Assembly: GCA_027619975.1 (NCBI GenBank)
Contig: JAQCGX010000010.1
Span: forward strand, 1-64,000
Length of the DNA: 64,000 bases
Reading direction: 5' to 3'
Source: Nitrospinota bacterium
GTDB lineage: Bacteria; Nitrospinota; Nitrospinia; Nitrospinales; VA-1
Every line of letters starts with the position of its first letter. The first letter of the stretch is position 1. Shown piece after piece: positions 27,029 to 37,239 of this stretch. The notes below the pieces were generated by a model that was not told the origin of the DNA, made no database searches, and saw nothing but the letters and a program-made list of their open reading frames with translations. The position numbers and the translations under genes were made by a program.

Positions 27029-27877
27029 ATGTCTGAGCGAGAAATACAGAACATACCAGAGTGGATATCACAAGTTATCCTATTCTTATTTGGAGGATGG
27101 CTTTTTAAATTGGGTTCTGACCTTATTAGCGCAAACCAACCTTGGCTTACAGTATCTATTTTTGGATTAGGAGTTTTATTAATTGGTATGGCAGGTGTGG
27201 GACCAACTAGGATTGCAAATTTTGGAGCTAAATGGGGGAAAGGGGGTGGGGAGTTCGGCGTTAGCGTTAGGAATCAACCTACAGAAAAGGAACGGGAACT
27301 TGTCCTCAAAGTATCTCAAGATCAACTTTCCCCTGAAATCGAAAAAGAAGAGCAAGATTACATTAAAGAGGCAGAAGAGCGGGCTCCTGAAAGACGCTCG
27401 CCGGAGGATTATCTGGCGTTGGCCACTGAAAAATGGCGTGCCAAAGACTACGACGGCGCATTGGCTGACGTGTTTGCCGGTTTAGCCTTGAATCCAAAAA
27501 ATATCCGCATCAAGGCCAGTTTGATTCATAGAAAAGGTAGCGCCTTTCATGATCTTGGGCTGATGGATCAGGCAAAAAAATACTATAAAGAAGCCATTGA
27601 GCTTGACCCCAGTTTTTCGTTGCCCCACTCCAACCTGGGATACCTTTATCAGGGTCAAGGGAACCTTGAGGCAGCAAAAAAGGAGTATAAAGAAGCCATT
27701 GAGCTTGACCCCAGTTTTTCGTTGCCCCACCACAACCTGGGAAACCTTTATAAGGGTCAAGGGAACCTTGAGGCAGCAAAAAAGGAGTATGAAGAAGCCT
27801 TGCGATTAGATCCTGAATTAACTCTGGCAAGAAAATACCTTGAGAAATTAAAAAAAGAAATGGAGAAGGGGGAATAA
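27029..27877 (+). CDS. Membrane-anchored TPR protein with tandem unit duplication
   Basis: 282 residues: two membrane segments at about 11-29 and 38-58 (ISQVILFLFGGWLFKLG; LTVSIFGLGVLLIGMAG), a charged linker, then at least three TPRs. The last units (YKEAIELDPSFSLPHSNLGY and its copies) are nearly identical at the DNA level with a 102-bp period. It appears to be a cytoplasmic-face scaffold; there is no catalytic domain. Confidence 0.78.
   Translation: MSEREIQNIPEWISQVILFLFGGWLFKLGSDLISANQPWLTVSIFGLGVLLIGMAGVGPTRIANFGAKWGKGGGEFGVSVRNQPTEKERELVLKVSQDQLSPEIEKEEQDYIKEAEERAPERRSPEDYLALATEKWRAKDYDGALADVFAGLALNPKNIRIKASLIHRKGSAFHDLGLMDQAKKYYKEAIELDPSFSLPHSNLGYLYQGQGNLEAAKKEYKEAIELDPSFSLPHHNLGNLYKGQGNLEAAKKEYEEALRLDPELTLARKYLEKLKKEMEKGE
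27584..27787 (+). repeat. 102-bp tandem repeat inside the TPR gene
   Basis: Two almost identical 102-bp units (27584-27685 and 27686-27787), each encoding one 34-residue TPR, followed by a third more diverged unit from 27788. Identity at silent positions shows a recent duplication. Confidence 0.85.
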
Positions 27878-32512: not shown

Positions 32513-32956
32513 ATGAGCATACATCGACTGACCTATATTTCAGAAAATATTTATAAACTCCGCGAGCAGGACCGGATCATCGGATGCTATCTTTACGATG
32601 AATTTGACGATGCGTTGTCCCGAATCGAAGCCCTGGTGGTGGAATCGGGGACCCTTCTTGCCCGCTACGCAGTGGTCACCCTCGGTGGGATGCTGAATAT
32701 CAAAGGTAAAACCTTGCTTCTTCCTATAGAGGTTTGCCGGTCCATCGATTTGGGGAAAGTGCGAACTGCCTGGCGCAAGGAATCCCTCATGGACGCGCCC
32801 ACGCCTCACAACCCACAACAAGTGACGATTGCGGAAGAGGAACTCATTTTAGGATATTTTGATCTGAAACCCTATTGGGCGGTTGAACCTGAGCCACCGG
32901 AAGAAAAACCAGGCGACAAAAACTCCGACCCGAAATCCCGTAAGCCGGGATATTAG
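32513..32956 (+). CDS. PRC-barrel-like domain protein
   Basis: 147 residues. The first part (DRIIGCYLYDEFDDALSRIEALVVESGTLLARYAVVTLGG) and the following KTLLLPIEVCRSID resemble a PRC-barrel domain, a small beta-barrel used in RNA-processing (RimM) and regulatory proteins. The Pro/Glu/Lys-rich C-terminus is probably disordered. Function unknown. It precedes the SIR2-TPR gene by 117 bp on the same strand. Confidence 0.65.
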   Translation: MSIHRLTYISENIYKLREQDRIIGCYLYDEFDDALSRIEALVVESGTLLARYAVVTLGGMLNIKGKTLLLPIEVCRSIDLGKVRTAWRKESLMDAPTPHNPQQVTIAEEELILGYFDLKPYWAVEPEPPEEKPGDKNSDPKSRKPGY

Positions 32957-33073: not shown

Positions 33074-34729
33074 ATGGACCAGAAATTTGAACGCCAGATT
33101 GAAGATATTGTTTTTCAATTGAGAGCCGCGAAAGATAAGGGCAGAAAGTGCACCTTGTTAATCGGAGCCGGTTGCTCGGTCACAGCAGGAATTCCCACCG
33201 CCAGGGAATTTGTAGAGGAAATTGAGAAGGATCACACACGCGCTTATGAAAGAGCAAAACAAAAAGACTACGCCCATTGCATGGAGGAACTCCTCCCCGG
33301 TGAAAGGCATGATTTGATTGTCAAATATATTGGTGGGGCTAAGGTCAACTGGGCGCACATGTGCATCGGTCTTCTCATCCAACAAGGTTACGTGGACCGG
33401 GTATTGACCGTCAACTTCGATCCCCTGGTGGCCAGGGCCTGCGCTCTACTGCGTGAATTTCCCGCCATCTATGATTTCGCCGCGTCCAAACATTTTGATC
33501 CCGATCGAATTCCCGATAAAGCGGTGTTTCACTTGCACGGCCAGCACACCGGTTTCGTTCTCCTTCACACCACTAAAGATGTGGAAGGACATGTGGATAC
33601 TTTTGCACCGGTTTTTGAGGATGCGGGACGGGAACGAACCTGGATGGTTGTGGGCTACAGTGGGGAATGCGACCCGGTATTTAAACACCTCGAAAAAGTC
33701 AAAGAGTTTAGCAGGGGGCTTTACTGGATTGGGCACGACCAAAAAGAACCTTCGGAACATGTGCGCGAAGGTCTTCTGGTTTCCGGAAAGGGAGCCTTTT
33801 ATACCAAGGGGTATGATGCGGACTCTTTTTTCATCAAGCTGACGCAAGAGCTGGAAATTTTTCCTCCCAAGTTTGTCACTCATCCTTTTACCCACCTCCA
33901 GGATACTTTTGAGGATTTAGAGCCCCTCATTCTTCCAGACCAATCCGAGGATATCCTCAGTGATACCCGATCGAACATCAATAAGGCCATTGAAAAATAT
34001 GAAGCTGGTGATGAGGAAAAACTCGTTGCCGAGGCCTTGCGCCTGTCGATGGCTGGTGATGATGAAGAACTTGTGCAATTTTGTATTAAGCACCAACTAA
34101 CCACCCACCCCCAACTCATCGAACCGTTAGCCTGGGCTTATATAGACTTGGCAAAAGCTCTCTACGATCAGGCGAGGACCAAAAGCGAGAAAGAAGCCGA
34201 CCTTCTCTTCACCCAGACCGAGGAAAAACTTCAGGAAGCCTTGAAGATCAAACCCAACCTCCACGAGGCTCTATACAATTTGGGCCTTGCCCTTCATGAA
34301 CACGCAAAGACCAAAACCGGTGAGGAAGAGAAAGCGGAAGCGAACAAACTCTTCACCCAGGCCGTAGAAAAATATCAGCAAGCCTTGGAAATCAAACCCG
34401 AAAAACACGAGGCTCTCAATAATTGGGGCCTTGCCCTTCATGAACACGCAAAGACCAAAACCGGGGAGGAGGCGGACGAACTCTTCGTTAAGGCAAGAGA
34501 AAAATATCAAGAAGCCTTGAAAATCAAACCAGACATGTACGAGGCTCTTTTTAATATGGCATGCCTGGCCGCTTTGACGGGAGATGAAAAGGGGTGCCAG
34601 GATTGGCTGGAGAAGAGTATCAAAATGGAGCCTTTAACTGAAGAAAATATCAACGACTCTGATTTTGACAATGTGCGGGAGTTGGGTTGGTTCAAAAAAC
34701 TGGTGGCTGAATCTAAGAAGAAGGAGTGA
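33074..34729 (+). CDS. SIR2-domain protein with C-terminal TPR array
   Basis: 551 residues. The first 270 form a SIR2-type Rossmann domain: GAGCSVTAGIP at 31-41 (NAD binding), TVNFD at 112-116 with Asn114 and Asp116, and HLHGQ at 153-157 with the likely catalytic His155. After a linker come four or more long TPRs from about residue 340 to 525 (ALYNLGLALHEHAKTKTGEE, ALNNWGLALHEHAKTKTGEE, ALFNMACLAALTGDEKG). Two of these share a 144-bp near-identical DNA unit. Stand-alone SIR2 proteins of this type degrade NAD in phage-defence systems, with the C-terminal repeats acting as sensor. The ATG has GCAGGTAGG upstream. A strong terminator follows at once, so it seems to act as a single-gene unit. It could also be a regulatory deacylase. 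Confidence 0.85.
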   Translation: MDQKFERQIEDIVFQLRAAKDKGRKCTLLIGAGCSVTAGIPTAREFVEEIEKDHTRAYERAKQKDYAHCMEELLPGERHDLIVKYIGGAKVNWAHMCIGLLIQQGYVDRVLTVNFDPLVARACALLREFPAIYDFAASKHFDPDRIPDKAVFHLHGQHTGFVLLHTTKDVEGHVDTFAPVFEDAGRERTWMVVGYSGECDPVFKHLEKVKEFSRGLYWIGHDQKEPSEHVREGLLVSGKGAFYTKGYDADSFFIKLTQELEIFPPKFVTHPFTHLQDTFEDLEPLILPDQSEDILSDTRSNINKAIEKYEAGDEEKLVAEALRLSMAGDDEELVQFCIKHQLTTHPQLIEPLAWAYIDLAKALYDQARTKSEKEADLLFTQTEEKLQEALKIKPNLHEALYNLGLALHEHAKTKTGEEEKAEANKLFTQAVEKYQQALEIKPEKHEALNNWGLALHEHAKTKTGEEADELFVKAREKYQEALKIKPDMYEALFNMACLAALTGDEKGCQDWLEKSIKMEPLTEENINDSDFDNVRELGWFKKLVAESKKKE

Positions 34730-34780: not shown

Positions 34781-34812
34781 CCTTCTCCCCACAGGGGAGA
34801 AGGGGATTTTTT
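34781..34812 (+). terminator. Strong intrinsic terminator after the SIR2-TPR gene
   Basis: A perfect 10-bp stem CCTTCTCCCC-ACA-GGGGAGAAGG is followed by GGATTTTTTAT. It is preceded by a second GGGGC/GCCCC hairpin at about 34759-34771. The CTCATCCCAGCCTTCTCCCC wording is that of a common dispersed bacterial repeat. Confidence 0.8.
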
Positions 34813-34817
34813 ATCAA

Positions 34818-35927
34818 TCATCCGCCGACGGCTTTTTTGCCTTCCAGTTTTTTCATCAGCCGGACTACGGCTTCGGACACATCTTTGACGCTGATATCTT
34901 CCAGGCAATAGGGTTTGTTGTGCGGCGAGGGTTTGCATTCCTTGAAAAATTTCTGCCGACAGGGAGAGCATTCGAAGTTTTTGGTCACGATTTCCTGTTT
35001 CGCCTTATCTATATAAGGCCCGCTGGTGAGAGAACTCCCCGGACCAAATATGCCCACCAACGGAGTGCCCACCATGCTGGTGAGGTGCATCATGCCACTG
35101 TCGTTGCCAATGAACAGGTGACTTTTCTCCAGAAGCGCGGCCACTTCCCGCAAGTCCATATTCGGCGGTACGGGAACCACATGCCCAGGAGAAAACTTTC
35201 GTATCTGCGCCAAGAGGCCCGCATCTTTTTCGTTGCCTAGAAGAATGATTTTGACAGGATACTCCTTGACCAGTTTCTGACACAGTATTCCAAAACGTTC
35301 TGAATGCCAGCCGCGTTGCGGCTTGGATGTCCCCGGATGCACCACGATCAACAACTGGTTCTTCTCCCAGCCTGAACGGGACAGGAATTCCTCCACGAAC
35401 TTATCTTCCCCGTTTTTATTTAACGGCAGGAATTTTTTTTCGTCCGGGTCAAGTTTAAGTGGCTCCATCAGATCAAAAAAATAATCGACCCGGTAGGCGG
35501 TCCTTTTGGCAAGAGAGGTGACGGAAACCGGGTGGGTCAGGAAAATTTCCCGGCCTTCGGTATTATATCCCAGCCGGTTTTTGACCCCGGCAAGAGACAT
35601 CATAAACGCAGTGTGGATCGAGTTGGGAAACACGATTCCAAGATCAAACCTGTATTTTCTAAGTTTTCGTGCAAACCGCAACCCCGCCAGATAACCGCCT
35701 TTCGACTTGGAGGGAATCTGGATCACGGTGTCCACCGCCGGGTGGGCCATCAGGATCTGGTCGGCTGGAGCCTTTACCACCGCCGTTATGCGAGAATGGG
35801 GATATTTTGCGCGCAGGGACTGCAATGCGGGCAATGCCAGAATGACATCGCCGATCCAATTGGGCATCCACAAAAGGATATTATGGAAATTCTGTTCGTG
35901 TAATGGTTTTTCCTCAGGCTCACTCAT
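34818..35927 (-). CDS. waaF: Lipopolysaccharide heptosyltransferase (GT9)
   Basis: 369 residues from the ATG at 35927; a GTG at 35993 that overlaps the murA stop is an alternative. WMPNWIGDVILALPALQSLR at the N-terminus, VVHPGTSKPQRGW near the middle and FIGNDSGMMHLTSMVGTPLVGIFG at the C-terminus are typical of ADP-heptose:LPS heptosyltransferase II. It adds the second heptose to the LPS inner core and shows the cell has an LPS outer membrane. It lies downstream of murA and is likely cotranscribed. Confidence 0.88.
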   Translation of the reverse strand: MSEPEEKPLHEQNFHNILLWMPNWIGDVILALPALQSLRAKYPHSRITAVVKAPADQILMAHPAVDTVIQIPSKSKGGYLAGLRFARKLRKYRFDLGIVFPNSIHTAFMMSLAGVKNRLGYNTEGREIFLTHPVSVTSLAKRTAYRVDYFFDLMEPLKLDPDEKKFLPLNKNGEDKFVEEFLSRSGWEKNQLLIVVHPGTSKPQRGWHSERFGILCQKLVKEYPVKIILLGNEKDAGLLAQIRKFSPGHVVPVPPNMDLREVAALLEKSHLFIGNDSGMMHLTSMVGTPLVGIFGPGSSLTSGPYIDKAKQEIVTKNFECSPCRQKFFKECKPSPHNKPYCLEDISVKDVSEAVVRLMKKLEGKKAVGG

Positions 35928-35982
35928 CGCGTTATTGGCCTTTTTATAAAAAAACTCATACCGTTTTTGCTTTGTCCTCAGG

Positions 35983-37239
35983 TCATCTGGCACGCCGGAT
36001 GGTCGCGCCCAGCTGGACTAATTTATTTTCCATCGCTTCATACCCCCGGTCAATATGATAGACGCGGGATATCACCGACTCTCCCTTCGCCGCCAGTGCC
36101 GCCAACACCAGAGACGCGCTCGCTCTCAGGTCGGTCGCCATCAAGGGAGCGCCGGACAACTGCCCGACTCCTTTGATAATGGCGGTGCGCCCATCCAATG
36201 TAATTTTTGCTCCCATGCGCCTGAGTTCCGCCGCATGCATGAATCGGTTCTCAAACACATTCTCCACAATGATACTCTGCCCGTCCGCTAAAGTCATTAA
36301 CGCCATCATCTGAGCCTGGAGATCTGTTGGAAACCCTGGGTGTGGCTGGGTCTTTATGTCAACCCCCTTAAAGGAATTTCCTCCTTTGACCCGGATGCTG
36401 GTGCCACTGATTTCTACACACACTCCCGCTTCCTGTAATTTGTGTATGAGCGGTTCCACATGTTGAGAAATGCAGTTGGTGATTTCCACGTCTCCGCCAG
36501 TGATGGCCGCCGCAATCATGTAGGTTCCCGCTTCTATACGGTCGGGGAAGACCCTGCACTCGATAGGTTTGAGGCCACTGACTCCCTGAATGGTGATGAC
36601 ATCCGTTCCCTGACCTTCAATTTTAGCGCCAGACTGGACCAAAACATCGGCCAGAAAAACAACTTCCGGTTCCTTGGCGGCATTTTCCAGCACAGTTTCA
36701 CCCTCGGAAAGCACTGCGGCCATCATCAGGTTGACTGTTCCAGTCACCGTCACCGTATCAAAATAAATATGCTCGCCCTTCAATCCTTTTCCAGCGGTTC
36801 CGTGGATGTAACCTTGAACCAGTTCGATATCGGCTCCCATCGTCTGCAATCCCTTGATGTGCAAATCCATGGGACGCGCACCGATGGCACAGCCGCCGGG
36901 CAAAGAAACTTTGGCTTTCCCCAGACGGGAGAGAAGCGGACCCAAAACCAAACAAGACGCGCGCATGGTCGATACCAGCTCGTACGGAGCTTCCGAATTG
37001 TTCACTCCGGAGGTATCGATTATCAGGGTGTCGCCTTCAAAGCTTTCCAGGCGGGCGCCAAGTTCTTCAAGCAGGCGGATCATGGTGGTGACATCGCGGA
37101 CACGGGGAACGCCTTCAATCACATTCCTGCCTGCCGTCAACAGGGTGGCGGCCAAAATGGGCAAGACCGCATTTTTAGCTCCGCTGATCGCGACCTGTCC
37201 TGTAAGCCGCCGTCCACCTGCAATGATGAGTTTATCCAT
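35983..37239 (-). CDS. murA: UDP-N-acetylglucosamine 1-carboxyvinyltransferase
   Basis: 418 residues, standard for MurA. It catalyses the first committed step of peptidoglycan synthesis. KNAVLPILAATLL near 22-34 binds substrate, and Cys117 in LPGGCAIGARP is the fosfomycin-reactive residue, so the enzyme should be fosfomycin-sensitive. Its start overlaps the prmC stop by 8 bp. Confidence 0.96.
   Translation of the reverse strand: MDKLIIAGGRRLTGQVAISGAKNAVLPILAATLLTAGRNVIEGVPRVRDVTTMIRLLEELGARLESFEGDTLIIDTSGVNNSEAPYELVSTMRASCLVLGPLLSRLGKAKVSLPGGCAIGARPMDLHIKGLQTMGADIELVQGYIHGTAGKGLKGEHIYFDTVTVTGTVNLMMAAVLSEGETVLENAAKEPEVVFLADVLVQSGAKIEGQGTDVITIQGVSGLKPIECRVFPDRIEAGTYMIAAAITGGDVEITNCISQHVEPLIHKLQEAGVCVEISGTSIRVKGGNSFKGVDIKTQPHPGFPTDLQAQMMALMTLADGQSIIVENVFENRFMHAAELRRMGAKITLDGRTAIIKGVGQLSGAPLMATDLRASASLVLAALAAKGESVISRVYHIDRGYEAMENKLVQLGATIRRAR

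Follow-up and report, generated by a model that had tools for sequence, protein, structure and literature searches.

The gene at positions 33074-34729 (+ strand) of the window, as we call the whole 64,000-nucleotide stretch of Nitrospinota DNA analyzed here, probably encodes a single protein that is both immune receptor and effector, a SIR2 NADase joined to a TPR sensor of invaders. The N-terminal SIR2 domain is proposed to be a NAD-cleaving enzyme that would be held inactive before infection, while the array of 44-residue TPR-like repeats would bind a protein of a phage or of another invading mobile element. Docking of this ligand in the TPR groove may then change the assembly state of the protein, probably through oligomerization, and this change would switch on NAD hydrolysis and arrest the infected cell. 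NAD hydrolysis, the identity of the ligand, oligomerization and protection are proposed by analogy with known SIR2 defense proteins (PMC12931631 and PMC10981675). The proposal builds on the domain layout, the catalytic motifs, insertion as a single gene, a scattered occurrence across phyla, carriage by phages and the evolution of the repeats in other members of the family.

A NAD-depleting defense gene is also what a preliminary description of this locus had suggested. In favor of such a role are folds typical of defense SIR2s, the retention of catalytic residues, the occurrence of family members in temperate phages and diversification at the ligand face of the repeats; against it stand the position of the gene outside any accessory patch and that of its relatives elsewhere outside defense islands. 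SIR2 NADases are established effectors of phage defense, and many of the sensors described to date work via a partner, a nucleotide signal or a STAND ATPase. If the proposed function is correct, a single-protein family with hypervariable, homogenized TPR arrays would exist in bacteria, an archaeon and phages, and would offer a compact system for testing how repeat recombination creates recognition diversity, since repeats could be swapped and the loss of NAD read out.

Domain organization of the SIR2-TPR protein

The open reading frame is genuine; it starts with ATG, encodes 551 amino acids, is matched by Pfam models and has a copy at the same site in another genome (G004). The SIR2-like domain (aa 1-289; 33074-33940, on the + strand like all parts of the gene described here) was recognized by Pfam SIR2_2 (26.0 bits for a cut-off of 24.5), PADLOC, a PDB profile search and Foldseek. 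The intact SIR2 core reported in the preliminary description is in place: the translation and an alignment of about 50 homologs reveal a GAGxS-type nucleotide-binding loop (GAGCS, aa 31-35; 33164-33178), the catalytic Asn114 within TVNFD (aa 112-116; 33407-33421) and the catalytic His155 within HLHGQ (aa 153-157; 33530-33544). A linker that is helical in the AlphaFold2 model (aa 290-352; 33941-34129) leads to the repeats (aa 353-488), which repeat analysis divides into units of 44, 48 and 44 residues (34130-34261, 34262-34405 and 34406-34537), the second with a four-residue insertion, compared with the usual TPR length of 34. Several Pfam TPR models match residues 360-520, and successive repeats share 83% DNA identity over 134 nt. 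The 63-residue C-terminal cap that follows (aa 489-551; 34538-34726) is of the TPR_END_plus type (NCBIfam NF047558, 41.2 bits for a cut-off of 32) and is conserved in both the dispersed and the long forms of the family discussed below. By its NWAH plus HLHGQ SIR2 signature, its 44-residue repeats and its cap, the window protein belongs to the dispersed family as defined here. Its array, first described as long, consists of only three repeats and the cap and is among the shortest of the family.

Relationship to known SIR2 systems

The AlphaFold2 model of the window protein (mean pLDDT 84.7; pTM 0.52) retrieved defense SIR2s as the top structures in Foldseek, SPARSA and DSR2 followed by KomC and ThsA, and a PDB profile search placed the SPARSA SIR2 first (E 1.6e-13), with deacetylases at 1.3e-5. 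Comparison with profiles of SIR2 defense families, a check proposed in the preliminary description, gave a match to the PADLOC SPARSA-type SIR2 model (83.7 bits) that covers the SIR2 part only (positions 72-252 of 558). The same description had asked whether metabolic sirtuins would be the best matches, which is not the case. A sirtuin deacylase of the CobB type was rejected, as the deacylase models scored 12-20 bits where their cut-offs lie at 221-395, and the four-Cys zinc site of deacylases is absent, the SIR2 domain having a single Cys after His155. A BFVD fold search returned mostly generic repeat proteins.

Several described systems were considered and set aside. For Thoeris ThsA, which combines a SLOG domain with a ThsB (TIR) partner, no SLOG or TIR domain was found in the protein or its scanned neighbors, and the flanks are core genes; for SIR2-HerA, the neighbors are PRC and heptosyltransferase genes and include no HerA partner. 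SPARSA has the SIR2 domain nearest to that of the window protein, by sequence profile as well as by fold, but differs in its APAZ domain and Argonaute gene, and we found neither an APAZ/PNTD region in the protein nor a short pAgo gene among the neighbors. Avs5 shares a SIR2 effector and the use of C-terminal repeats, TPR included, as sensor (PMC12931631) but has a STAND ATPase domain, whereas a Pfam scan detected no STAND NTPase between the SIR2 domain and the repeats of the window protein, so that assignment to Avs5 or to other SIR2-STAND proteins was rejected. DSR2, for which recognition of a phage tail tube protein and depletion of NAD have been reported (PMC10981675), is like the window protein a single large protein with an N-terminal SIR2 NADase and a C-terminal helical sensor, and two of its structures (8w56 and 8wyb) were among the top fold matches, although superposition over the whole length is poor (rmsd about 20, TM 0.35). 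PDB searches gave no sequence match between DSR2 and the window protein, and the sensor of the window family, unlike that of DSR2, is an array of 44-residue TPRs that varies in length. The window protein may resemble DSR2 and Avs5 in its workings; membership in either group goes beyond the present evidence. Literature searches for the exact SIR2-TPR architecture, in a collection with few subscription papers, found no dedicated paper.

Insertion of a single gene into a core locus

The SIR2-TPR gene is flanked by a usually single-copy gene for a PRC-barrel protein on the left (32513-32956, + strand) and by a family 9 glycosyltransferase (heptosyltransferase) gene on the right (34818-35993, - strand), both assigned from Pfam and synteny, which converge on it from both sides. 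A genome of the same genus (G003) lacks the SIR2 gene at this site: only about 7 bp separate its two flanking genes, and its clpC-rho block is otherwise collinear with the window. The pair is also present without a SIR2 gene in G008 and G013, and the PRC gene of G005 is followed by murA, the next syntenic gene, with no SIR2 gene between. In G004 the SIR2-TPR gene is found at the same site, with 82% identity over the first 90 residues up to the contig end. The adjacency of the two flanking genes in G003 and the same-site copy in G004 show the insertion of a single gene into a core region, and this insertion is common to two species of the genus. The patch with repeats and accessory genes of the preliminary description is thus not what surrounds the gene: the flanks (ClpC-like, symporter, PRC, heptosyltransferase, murA, prmC, prfA and rho) are core genes that are syntenic in other genera of the family, and of the DNA repeats close by, most are the TPR units of the gene itself or belong to a second TPR gene, at 27029-27877.

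The gene does stand alone, as had been stated. The tight terminator of its own that was also attributed to it is only partly confirmed: a hairpin with a T run at 34781-34803, 52 bases downstream of the gene, is a possible shared terminator between convergent genes, but the palindrome recurs in the window genome at about eight exact and 12 near-exact sites, so the hairpin is a dispersed element rather than a private terminator. The palindrome reads CCTTCTCCCC-NNN-GGGGAGAAGG, and about a dozen sites in the genome make up this dispersed hairpin family.

A non-functional or neutral insertion would be compatible with the patchy presence of the gene and with its short array. Such an explanation appears highly improbable given that the frame is open and the catalytic residues are intact, and given an identity to the same-site G004 ortholog of 82% over its first 90 residues, which compares with 53-86% for the flanking proteins.

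As a separate observation, the TPR gene at 27029-27877 adjoins clpC and encodes a possible membrane segment together with TPRs, its 102-nt repeats being 93% identical to each other.

Dispersed relatives and carriage by temperate phages

One genome from each of 84,980 species was scanned, and 70 loci related to the window gene emerged. The best relatives (50-61% identity) are from Myxococcota, Planctomycetota, a Methanosarcinaceae archaeon, Thiosymbion, Armatimonadota, Chloroflexota, Actinomycetota, Azospirillum and Mesorhizobium, with more distant dispersed clades in rhizobia, Psychrobacter and Acinetobacter. The nearest relatives of the window gene in the tree are those of Myxococcota, a methanogen and Planctomycetota, and the sequences indicate that the SIR2-TPR gene has been transferred between phyla. 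All dispersed members that align retain Asn and His in the active site, the catalytic loop being conserved across them as well, and in the outgroup (24-29% identity) HG is replaced by NG in only two rows of the alignment. Dispersed members measure from about 450 to more than 1100 residues, and the family as a whole extends up to 1185 aa.

No constant partner gene was found across the dispersed loci, save for local synteny inside genera. Most of the 108 nearest neighbors are unrelated housekeeping genes and only a handful match any PADLOC model at 1e-15, on which ground a location in defense islands was rejected. Conserved housekeeping neighbors, which the preliminary description regarded as an argument against defense, characterize the long form of Nitrospinota and not the dispersed members nearest the window gene. 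In seven Acinetobacter genomes (L134, L135, L136, L137, L140, L141 and L142), SIR2-TPR genes of differing lengths occupy what is apparently a single shared chromosomal site, between genes for proteins of about 404 and 626 aa; this site is possibly a fixed hotspot.

Among 2.9 million viral contigs, a single-protein query found no match, and a query with an alignment recovered six viral records with SIR2-TPR, representing three independent temperate phages. The phage-borne members share 31-39% identity with the window SIR2 domain and are not close copies of it. In the first phage (L161), the gene follows an integrase and an Apea-like HEPN gene and precedes a CI-type repressor and a CII-like activator. 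In the second (L162:6010-9567), it encodes a 1185-aa protein whose 44-residue repeats, about 17 in number, are very similar to each other, and is preceded by replication genes, a Holliday resolvase, a methyltransferase and a late activator, and followed by an endolysin and a small terminase. The order in the third (L165) is tail fiber, baseplate, catalase, SIR2-TPR and baseplate hub. In all three, the gene appears to occupy a cargo position. More distantly related SIR2 proteins adjoin the integrase of a P2-like Vibrio phage and lie near that of a haloarchaeal pleolipovirus, and BLAST searches of plasmids and phages returned only relatives of about 24% identity, which belong to another branch of SIR2 proteins, nearer to the SPARSA models, and point weakly to phage carriage. 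The catalase gene of the third phage is long and lies beside SIR2-TPR in the tail region (L165:3733-7872), an odd pair of cargo genes.

Carriage by temperate phages would also be expected of a gene that phages spread for superinfection exclusion or for their own fitness and that chromosomes have captured, acting through protein ADP-ribosylation rather than NAD depletion; ADP-ribosyl transfer by sirtuin domains has been reported in conflict systems (PMC9503650). We consider this explanation improbable, as the viral contigs contain only the six records mentioned (three independent) against 70 genome loci, and as the nearest folds are those of NADases.

Homogenization of the repeats and change at the ligand face

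The 44-residue repeats are homogenized in many members of the family, with DNA identities of up to 99%. The DNA identity of adjacent repeats, taken from the best window of each array, was 0.82 at the median among 52 dispersed members, with values up to 1.0, and 0.55 among 17 long forms (Mann-Whitney p = 7e-5). By the rule applied to fungal NLRs, at least 85% internal repeat identity over 100 aa, a level rare in ordinary proteins (PMC4986451), arrays are homogenized in 19 of the 52 dispersed members and in none of the 17 long forms; the window protein itself, with three repeats, falls below this level.

With the repeat register set by a conserved Gly (TPR 8) and a conserved Pro (TPR 32), seven positions of the repeat correspond to TPR 2, 5, 9, 12, 13, 33 and 34, which form the concave ligand face (PMC1261162). 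In the 11 most homogenized arrays (mean identity at least 0.75), a set that leaves out the window copy because of its too few repeats, these positions make up 16% of sites and carry 41% of the nonsynonymous change (p = 5e-5 against random sets of seven), compared with 21% in the long forms, long arrays being near saturation in this test; the set is a published one, yet was tested after the ranking had been seen. Nonsynonymous difference per site amounts to 0.33 at the seven positions versus 0.10 elsewhere and is higher there in 11 of 11 arrays, which, where related, are not fully independent. The excess of nonsynonymous over synonymous change at the ligand positions is found in only seven of the 11 arrays and is non-significant, so relaxed constraint is possible too. 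As far as the sequences indicate, ligand-face change combined with homogenization is the pattern of a diversifying recognition array, and it is seen in other members than the window protein. Fungal NLRs of the HNWD and TPR types share with this family homogenized, superstructure-forming repeats, variation in length and ligand-facing change (PMC4986451), but have a NOD-type NTPase, which is absent from the present prokaryotic family with its SIR2 effector.

A long form fixed in a Nitrospinota lipid operon

A second SIR2-TPR form, of about 950-1000 aa, occurs once per genome across the order and shares about 32-44% identity with the window gene (38-44% for the SIR2 domain where the active site is intact). 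It resembles the window protein in its homologous SIR2 domain, 44-residue repeats and C-terminal cap, but differs in its size (about 980 aa), its diverged and seemingly frozen repeats, its fixed place in a lipid operon and, in family f2, the loss of the active site. In most cases, one or two genes with a CDP-alcohol phosphatidyltransferase domain stand immediately upstream of the long-form gene, frequently preceded by a TonB-like gene, and a DinG-like helicase lies near. The long forms make up one clade (100/99), and the sequences indicate vertical inheritance across Nitrospinota; the window gene falls outside this clade, and its derivation by duplication of the long form was therefore rejected. 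As these nearest paralogues belong to a lipid operon, the architecture by itself does not imply defense.

All 12 genomes of family f2 that were searched contain the long form, which is fragmented in two assemblies. Its Asn114 is changed to Cys or Ser in most of these proteins and its His155 to Asn or Lys. Since Avs5 uses NG, a SIR2 NADase may survive a His-to-Asn change alone, but Avs5 immunity was abolished when the Asn was lost (PMC12931631); by this analogy, f2 proteins without both residues are probably inactive. A conserved probable pseudoenzyme thus sits in an envelope-lipid operon at L054:7849-10815 and at other f2 loci.

The vertical inheritance of the long forms with a TonB-like gene, two CDP-alcohol phosphatidyltransferases and a DinG-like helicase would suit a cellular regulator, a NAD-dependent signaling or scaffold protein of envelope or lipid metabolism, of which the window copy would replace a lost long form. 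Consistent with this, the window genome has the lipid operon without the long gene (165 bp separate the second CDP-alcohol open reading frame from the helicase) and the short gene elsewhere. We nevertheless regard such a function as unlikely for the window gene: both forms are present in G004, the short form lies outside the lipid operon and has kin in other phyla without such neighbors, the repeat dynamics of the two forms differ strongly, and many Nitrospinota genomes contain neither.

Beyond the immune receptor proposed for the window gene, it is conceivable, if somewhat short of probable, that the family as a whole is a widely transferred group of prokaryotic receptors in which a SIR2 NADase is joined directly to a self-rewriting TPR array, with no STAND ATPase or second subunit. 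Recognition would be altered by repeat duplication, homogenization and ligand-face diversification, as in the repeats of fungal NLRs, and Nitrospinota would separately have tamed one copy into a lipid operon, one of their families making it a pseudoenzyme. The Nitrospinota branch raises the question of what role a catalytically degraded protein of immune type plays once fixed in an envelope-lipid operon.

In the window genome (G000), the lipid operon looks eroded; on contig C43 (L083:7525-8900), an in-frame stop cuts the second CDP-alcohol phosphatidyltransferase gene short in comparison with its relatives.
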